The notes under the pieces were generated by a model. The model was not told where the DNA came from and did no database searches. It worked only from the letters and a program-made list of their open reading frames with translations. A DNA stretch of 64,000 nt, taken from the NCBI RefSeq assembly GCF_013912065.1, contig NZ_JACESA010000006.1, forward strand, positions 141,303 through 205,302, written 5' to 3'. Both the position numbers and the translations under genes were made by a program. This DNA is from Brevundimonas sp. (GTDB taxonomy: Bacteria; Pseudomonadota; Alphaproteobacteria; Caulobacterales; Caulobacteraceae). Shown piece after piece: positions 55,404 through 56,723 of this stretch (position 1 is its first letter; each line of letters starts with the position of its first letter).

Positions 55404-56705
55404 CTAACCCCTATGCATATGAAGACTTTCGTGCTGGCCTCCAGCGCAGCGGCCGCCCTGGCCCTGTCGGCTGGCTCCGCGTCGGCCGAGCCCAACGGCT
55501 GGTACGGCGCGATCGACGCCGGCTACCACGTGATCGACGACATCAACGCCGAGTCGTCGACCACGGGCGCGAACTGGAACTATGAAGTGAACGACGGCTG
55601 GGCGGCCTTCGCCCGTCTCGGCTATCGCTTCAACCCCAACTGGCGCGTGGAACTCGAAGGCGGCTACCGCTCGGGCGACATCGGCAAGATCCGCGCCGTG
55701 TCGGGCACCCAGGGCCTGTGCAACGTCACTCCGGCGACCGGCGGCTGCTTCTCCCCGGAAGGCGACATCGAATCCACCACCCTGATGGCCAACGTCATCT
55801 ATGACTTCGGTTACGAAGCCTGGGGCGTGCGTCCGTTCGTCGGCCTCGGCGCCGGCGTGAACCGCGTCAACACCGAGACCGTCGGCTATCTGCGCGCCAA
55901 CCGCGGCGCCGCCTTCGCCATCGACGACAGCTCGACCGAGTTCGCCGCTCAGGCGATCGCCGGTCTGGCCTGGGCCATCGGCGACCGCACCAACATCGAC
56001 CTGACCTACCGCTACCTGACGGGCGACGCCTCCTGGGAGTCGACCACGGTCGGCACCGGCGCCGGCGCCGGTGCCGACCGTGGAAGACTCCCAGGAGGCG
56101 TCGCCCGTCAGGTAGCGGTAGGTCAGGTCGATGTTGGTGCGGTCGCCGATGGCCCAGGCCAGACCGGCGATCGCCTGAGCGGCGAACTCGGTCGAGCTGT
56201 CGTCGATGGCGAAGGCGGCGCCGCGGTTGGCGCGCAGATTGCCGACAGTCTCGGTGTTGACGCGGTTCACGCCGGCGCCGAGGCCGACGAACGGACGCAC
56301 GCCCCAGGCTTCGTAACCGAAGTCATAGATGACGTTCGCCATCAGGGTGGTGGATTCGATGTCGCCTTCCGGGGAGAAGCAGCCGCCGGTCGCCGGAGTG
56401 ACGTTGCACAGGCCCTGGGTGCCCGACACGGCGCGGATCTTGCCGATGTCGCCCGAGCGGTAGCCGCCTTCGAGTTCCACGCGCCAGTTGGGGTTGAAGC
56501 GATAGCCGAGACGGGCGAAGGCCGCCCAGCCGTCGTTCACTTCATAGTTCCAGTTCGCGCCCGTGGTCGACGACTCGGCGTTGATGTCGTCGATCACGTG
56601 GTAGCCGGCGTCGATCGCGCCGTACCAGCCGTTCGGTTCTGCCGAGGCCGCGCCGGCTGCGAACAGCCCCGCTACGGCGACGGAGGCGAGAAGTTTGAGC
56701 TTCAT
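55404..56705 (-). CDS. OmpA-type outer-membrane beta-barrel, 5' half (right copy), frame continues into inverted copy
   Basis: Starting at ATG 56705 (GAGGAAG upstream), the protein has its own signal peptide (MKLKLLASVAVAGLFAAG...AASA) and a beta-barrel beginning EPNGWYGAIDAGYHVIDD. The gene-like part ends at the palindrome axis 56064; after that the frame reads the antisense of the left copy with no recognisable domain. No OmpA peptidoglycan-binding domain is present, so the gene is truncated. About 214 residues look genuine. Confidence 0.6.
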   Translation of the reverse strand: MKLKLLASVAVAGLFAAGAASAEPNGWYGAIDAGYHVIDDINAESSTTGANWNYEVNDGWAAFARLGYRFNPNWRVELEGGYRSGDIGKIRAVSGTQGLCNVTPATGGCFSPEGDIESTTLMANVIYDFGYEAWGVRPFVGLGAGVNRVNTETVGNLRANRGAAFAIDDSSTEFAAQAIAGLAWAIGDRTNIDLTYRYLTGDASWESSTVGTGAGAGADRGRLPGGVARQVAVGQVDVGAVADGPGQTGDRLSGELGRAVVDGEGGAAVGAQIADGLGVDAVHAGAEADERTHAPGFVTEVIDDVGHQGGGFDVAFRGEAAAGRRSDVAQALGARHGADLADVARAVAAFEFHAPVGVEAIAETGEGRPAVVHFIVPVRARGRRLGVDVVDHVVAGVDRAVPAVGLGRRGASRQGQGGRCAGGQHESLHMHRG

Positions 56706-56723
56706 AGCTTCCTCATTCTGTAA
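55413..56723 (+). CDS. OmpA-type outer-membrane beta-barrel, 5' half (left copy), frame continues into inverted copy
   Basis: ATG at 55413 follows GGAGG. The protein has a signal peptide (HMKTFVLASSAAAALALSAG...ASA) and the barrel EPNGWYGAIDAGYHVIDD... through DLTYRYLTGDASWES (residues 28-210). After the axis at 56063 the frame runs in antisense of the right copy to 56723, giving a 436-residue ORF whose second half is not protein-like. The expected C-terminal OmpA domain is missing. Signal peptide and promoter differ from the right copy, so these are two paralogues. Confidence 0.6.
   Translation: MHMKTFVLASSAAAALALSAGSASAEPNGWYGAIDAGYHVIDDINAESSTTGANWNYEVNDGWAAFARLGYRFNPNWRVELEGGYRSGDIGKIRAVSGTQGLCNVTPATGGCFSPEGDIESTTLMANVIYDFGYEAWGVRPFVGLGAGVNRVNTETVGYLRANRGAAFAIDDSSTEFAAQAIAGLAWAIGDRTNIDLTYRYLTGDASWESTTVGTGAGAGADRGRLPGGVARQVAVGQVDVGAVADGPGQTGDRLSGELGRAVVDGEGGAAVGAQIADSLGVDAVHAGAEADERTHAPGFVTEVIDDVRHQGGGFDVAFRGEAAAGRRSDVAQALGARHGADLADVARAVAAFEFHAPVGVEAIAETGEGRPAVVHFIVPVRARGRRLGVDVVDHVVAGVDRAVPAVRFCRGRAGCEQPRYGDGGEKFELHSFLIL
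55494..56633. repeat. 1.14-kb spacerless inverted repeat (palindrome) of two ompA-like 5' halves
   Basis: Arms of 570 bp meet at 56063/56064 without a spacer. I found five base differences between arms by reading: one near 55793, two near 55883-55887, and two near 56042-56043, about 99% identity with no indel. The central 40 bp (56044-56083) are a perfect palindrome. Homology ends abruptly at the codons before NGWYG of the mature protein. Confidence 0.95.

Follow-up and report, generated by a model that had tools for sequence, protein, structure and literature searches.

A near-perfect palindrome built from two OmpA-type gene halves

The window, that is, the whole stretch of 64,000 nucleotides (64 kb) of the Brevundimonas sp. 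contig that was analysed here, contains a near-perfect palindrome at 55470-56657, which consists of two arms of 594 nt each (55470-56063 and 56064-56657) with 0 nt between them. The palindrome is far beyond chance and is the only perfect fold-back in the window when arms of 20 nt or longer and spacers no longer than 40 nt are sought. The arms differ at 12 of the 594 positions; the signal-peptide part accounts for seven of the mismatches (55472-55493), and the remaining five lie further inward, in the part coding for the mature protein (55790, 55880, 55887, 56042 and 56043), so that the perfect core around the axis at 56063/56064 spans 40 bp (56044-56083). Profile searches detected a PF13505 (OMP_b-brl) beta-barrel in both arms (E-values 3.5e-16 and 4.4e-17) and no match to the OmpA C-terminal domain in either. 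The signal peptides encoded by the two arms (MHMKTFVLASS... and MKLKLLASVAV...) are unlike each other, and so are the upstream sequences. Each arm is the 5' half of a real OmpA-type gene cut in the linker, and the two genes are paralogues, denoted A and B below. An earlier note on this DNA had already recognized a palindrome formed by the halves of two outer-membrane genes, both without their C-terminal halves, and had assigned the arms to two paralogues, all of which holds; the roughly five differing bases that it counted agree in number with those inward of the signal-peptide part, to which the seven outer ones have to be added. The features of the locus are as follows:

55413..56063, plus strand: 5' part of paralogue A (signal peptide, beta-barrel and start of the Gly/Ala linker), with the 3' part absent here; assigned by PF13505 and collinearity in three relatives
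56064..56705, minus strand: 5' part of paralogue B, inverted relative to A, start codon at 56705-56703; assigned by PF13505 on 56064-56702 and collinearity with the thiolase side in three relatives
55470..56657, no strand: the whole near-perfect palindrome, 2 x 594 nt, without a spacer; defined by the list of mismatches
56044..56083, no strand: 40-bp perfect palindromic core round the join; centred on the axis
56058..56069, no strand: 12-bp self-complementary GGCGCCGGCGCC, probably the sole native part of the palindrome; delimited by the end of the homology to relatives and the occurrence of the 12-mer in the related genome G004

Complete and separate paralogues in related genomes

In all three relatives compared (G028, G011 and G004), both paralogues are full length and occupy separate loci, with the layout of barrel, Gly/Ala linker, last barrel strand, long Pro-rich tract and OmpA C-terminal domain. 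Locus A of each of these genomes is collinear with the left side of the window up to 56068/56069 and then, about 250 bp further on, with the beginning of another contig of the window's own assembly, C26. Locus B of the three relatives is collinear with the right (thiolase) side of the window and, with G004 as the query, the 3' half of B and the region downstream match the end of contig C20. The paralogues are 330-430 kb apart and in direct orientation in G028 and G011. A search across the genus produced a match in 129 of the 131 genomes, that of the window included, and two or more matches in 27 of the 28 single-contig genomes, with weak matches counted; inspection by eye revealed no adjacent tail-to-tail pair in other genomes among the matches listed. 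The pairs in the three relatives and in the window share the same flanks and the same N-terminal halves, but are complete and separate in the former, whereas they are truncated and fused tail to tail in the latter.

The barrel-coding parts of the two paralogues appear to have exchanged sequence. In a tree of 24 rows based on 540 nt of the mature barrel, A and B are mutually nearest in 5 of the 12 genomes (that of the window among them), where they are 97.0-99.3% identical; in the other seven genomes, the two differ by 9-29% over the same 540 nt. The upstream-plus-signal regions (175 nt) of A and B are 47-54% alike within a genome, and between genomes those of the same locus show a mean similarity of 85% for A and 77% for B. 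The regions compared are 55490-56040 and 56087-56640 of the window and their counterparts in relatives among L011-L036 and L056. This pattern suggests episodic gene conversion between the paralogues, which would account for the near-identity of the two arms. A literature search for gene conversion of OmpA in Brevundimonas found no paper.

The native sequence at the axis

At the six loci of the three relatives, homology to the window ends 5-6 bp past the axis, so that about 12 bp (56058-56069) look native. In G004, both copies contain GGCGCCGGCGCC, and what comes after it is not palindromic. Most of the 40-bp perfect core would then be a product of the join rather than a native element. The earlier note placed a 40-bp perfect palindrome within the coding sequence; such a core is indeed there, but as a property of the gene it shrinks to about 12 bp. 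The 12-mer GGCGCCGGCGCC, which occurs at 46 sites in the same genome, could fold into a 4-bp stem with a 4-nt loop or pair two 3' ends. In copy B of G004, 96 nt separate the axis from the beginning of the Pro-rich tract, and because the 5' break lies that far ahead of the tract, the tract alone is insufficient to set the break point.

The missing middle and the 3' halves on other contigs

No intact copy of A or B was found in the assembly, and the middle of the gene is absent as well, an appearance that a deletion and an assembly gap would share. For the approximately 90 nt expected after the axis, a 261-nt query yielded no convincing match in the same genome among the matches listed, which fall in the Pro-rich or later part of the query except for one 39-nt match at 85%. 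The stretch that is absent from both C42, which holds the 5' halves, and C20 amounts to about 150 bp in the coordinates of G004 and comprises the last barrel strand and the Pro-rich tract. The lengths of the 45 contigs sum to the whole assembly and the shortest of them is 6,855 bp, which suggests that short contigs were omitted.

The 3' halves are found at the ends of two other contigs. The end of C20 runs from the OmpA C-terminal domain of B to the edge of the Pro-rich tract, passes through a 13-nt loop flanked by GCCGGC on both sides, and returns over 81 identical nt, at the end of which the contig stops. The 3' half of A is in C26, and the last base of the folded 3' half in C20 adjoins the start of C26 within the gene. 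The first 91 nt of C26 are exactly identical to C20, and because the identity extends over exactly this length, C26 looks like the start of a graph branch. Among the 16 distinct pairs of overlapping contig ends in the assembly, an overlap of exactly 91 nt recurs in 14 (the remaining two measure 79 and 22 nt), as is characteristic of a de Bruijn graph whose k is near 91.

Fold-backs at contig ends across the assembly

Both ends (3 kb or more) of the 45 contigs were scanned for perfect fold-backs, with a minimum arm length of 20 nt and a maximum spacer of 40 nt. Such a fold-back is located exactly at the terminus in 9 of the 90 contig ends, with arms of 32-81 nt and spacers of 3-37 nt:

C2, start: arms 56 nt, spacer 9 nt
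C12, start: arms 49 nt, spacer 37 nt
C22, start: arms 75 nt, spacer 3 nt
C25, start: arms 45 nt, spacer 3 nt
C27, start: arms 32 nt, spacer 5 nt
C33, start: arms 41 nt, spacer 14 nt
C34, start: arms 40 nt, spacer 6 nt
C17, end: arms 77 nt, spacer 10 nt
C20, end (inside the OmpA-type gene, 3' half): arms 81 nt, spacer 13 nt

Example coordinates of contig-end fold-backs are L119:1-121, L139:1-153 and L178:2837-3000. One end of C11 carries 20-nt arms that fall 2 nt short of the terminus, along with an interior 20-nt pair in the same stretch, and imperfect or more widely spaced fold-backs are present at three more ends (C15 start, C40 start and C25 end). At the start of C15 (L132:1-406), the arms are about 187 nt long, with mismatches at 86 and 181; comparison of this end with six relatives gave no useful homology.

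Two of the nine fold-back ends, the starts of C22 and C2, were compared with six relatives. In all six, forward homology begins near the hairpin, and the outer arm maps to the opposite strand at the same place. Because the outer arm matches the opposite strand only, the relatives have one straight copy to which this assembly adds an inverted second one. In most of the six relatives, homology enters the outer arm by about 7-9 nt at both C2 and C22. A short native hairpin or palindrome that could prime a fold-back is present at the axis in several of these places: 12 bp in the palindrome of the window, GCCGGC at C20, and about 7-9 nt at C2 and C22.

A control scan for arms of 25 nt or more covered 541,011 bases in 54 loci of other assemblies, and none of the 28 contig ends among them carries a fold-back, which makes this a fault of the present assembly and not of draft genomes in general. 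The same 54 loci contain a single fold-back overall, in Brevundimonas sp. G8 and away from contig ends; a further 35 loci of relatives (L066-L100) yielded only this G8 fold-back again. It occurs in copy A of the gene in that independent assembly (LR732816.1), where a perfect 137-nt fold-back with a 5-nt spacer is located at the start of the Pro-rich tract (L024:6587-6866), directly followed by N; beyond this base, the gene goes on with its normal 3' half. Copy B of G8 (L027:6726 onward) passes, where the tract begins, into sequence in which no OmpA C-terminal domain is encoded. Both G8 copies look misassembled, and the linker/Pro-rich region of OmpA seems hard to assemble in general.

Origin of the palindrome

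The fold-backs at many contig ends, the complete genes in relatives, the missing middle of the gene and the 91-nt overlaps are direct observations. Judging from these comparisons of sequences, the palindrome is very likely a fold-back artefact of sequencing and assembly that, in all probability, does not exist in the organism. The genome would contain two intact, near-identical OmpA-type genes at distant loci, with glpK/MaoC-type genes next to A and a thiolase gene next to B. The linker and the edge of the GC-rich Pro-rich tract contain short native hairpins at which single-stranded library molecules could snap back or, alternatively, pair end to end; copying would then yield inverted chimeras. 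In unique DNA, a fold-back of this kind would merely leave a short hairpin at a contig end, where the assembler stops. Here, A and B are 99% identical and the fold-back would be common to both, so that the assembler could exit A via this common fold-back and continue along B on its reverse strand, thereby joining the 5' halves of both genes. One feature of the join counts against the simplest artefact route. Just 20-21 nt from the axis (56042-56043), the bases on the two sides of the join already differ in type, A here and B there, so that with k = 91 the join needs either an A/B chimeric molecule or a step at low k, and a simple fold-back of A on A would not yield it. The earlier note held that the differences between the arms speak against a chimeric read, an argument that does not carry over to a chimera between two paralogues, which would keep both sets of flanks.

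Fold-back or PDSM chimeric reads at palindromes or inverted repeats are described as an artefact of library preparation in the part of PMC10908179 considered here, and the model given there includes pairing between strands of a similar molecule. The resemblance lies in chimeric reads that arise at natural palindromes or inverted repeats and combine part of the original strand with part of its reverse complement. That work, however, concerns reads from human targeted sequencing, whereas here the chimera would be built into a bacterial contig and involve two paralogues. Among the titles and the opening parts of abstracts of the papers listed, no description of such a case of fold-backs at contig ends was found.

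A real chromosomal inversion, with a break in each of the two direct paralogues followed by rejoining of A 5' to B 5' and A 3' to B 3', was the first of the two readings offered by the earlier note, which invoked exchange at a self-complementary linker. The joins would have formed by microhomology (GGCGCC repeats; GCCGGC), with the intervening segment flipped and about 150 bp lost at the joins. This scenario appears highly improbable to us, even though both half-joins have a counterpart (the 5' halves in C42 and the folded 3' half at the end of C20, beside the start of C26) and the paralogues are in direct orientation in G011 and G028. A 5'-5' join together with a fold on the 3' side would be left behind by an inversion, too. 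Of the reciprocal 3'-3' join that the note predicted elsewhere in the genome, one half was found, a folded 3' half at the end of C20, with identical 81-nt arms and a 13-nt loop at a different site. These arms, identical throughout and ending with the contig, resemble the fold-backs at eight other contig ends. An inversion would also disrupt both copies of a gene that is matched in 129 of 131 genomes, and both breaks fall on self-folding sequence, which a fold-back needs and an inversion does not. Nor do we give more than a very slight chance to the full version of this scenario, in which several hundred kilobases between gene-converted direct paralogues were inverted and a spacerless palindrome of 1.2 kb was stably kept with no SbcD recognised. 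According to the part of PMC3315005 considered here, SbcCD of E. coli cleaves the hairpin formed by a 246-bp interrupted palindrome. A search of the window's genome with TIGR00619 found no SbcD homologue; the protein may have diverged or be missing. The same profile matched 13 of 14 control genomes, Caulobacter vibrioides not being among the 13. Hairpin cleavage may thus be weaker than in E. coli, which favours an inversion, and the instability of palindromes via SbcCD was dropped as an argument against the reality of this one, as no SbcD was found with TIGR00619. A long inverted repeat in a bacterial chromosome is on record in Lactobacillus delbrueckii ssp. bulgaricus (PMC5345009, in the part considered here); the repeats there are 38-76 kb long and located at the replication terminus, whereas the present case involves 2 x 0.6 kb and two gene halves.

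The least probable account, in our estimate, is a pure walk of the assembler through a self-complementary k-mer, without any chimeric molecules. The axis is self-complementary and the 91-nt contig overlaps point to a de Bruijn assembler, but the native palindrome is just about 12 bp and the same 12-mer is found at 46 sites in the assembly. Moreover, spacers of 3-37 nt separate the arms of the other fold-backs, and such spacers call for copied molecules and not for k-mer symmetry. The misjoin suggested as a second possibility in the earlier note is retained without its proposed route: with about 12 native palindromic bp against overlaps of 91 nt, it takes molecules that folded back, or else a step at low k.

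Implications

Taken as a fold-back artefact, the palindrome is a warning, given that a tenth of the contig ends in this assembly carry perfect fold-back hairpins. Where near-identical genes coincide with fold-back sites, the artefact can join loci that lie far apart into a long palindrome that looks genuine. As an independent Brevundimonas assembly also has a fold-back in this gene, Pro-rich linkers of OmpA appear to be a repeated pitfall when genes are predicted, synteny is analysed or palindromes are surveyed.
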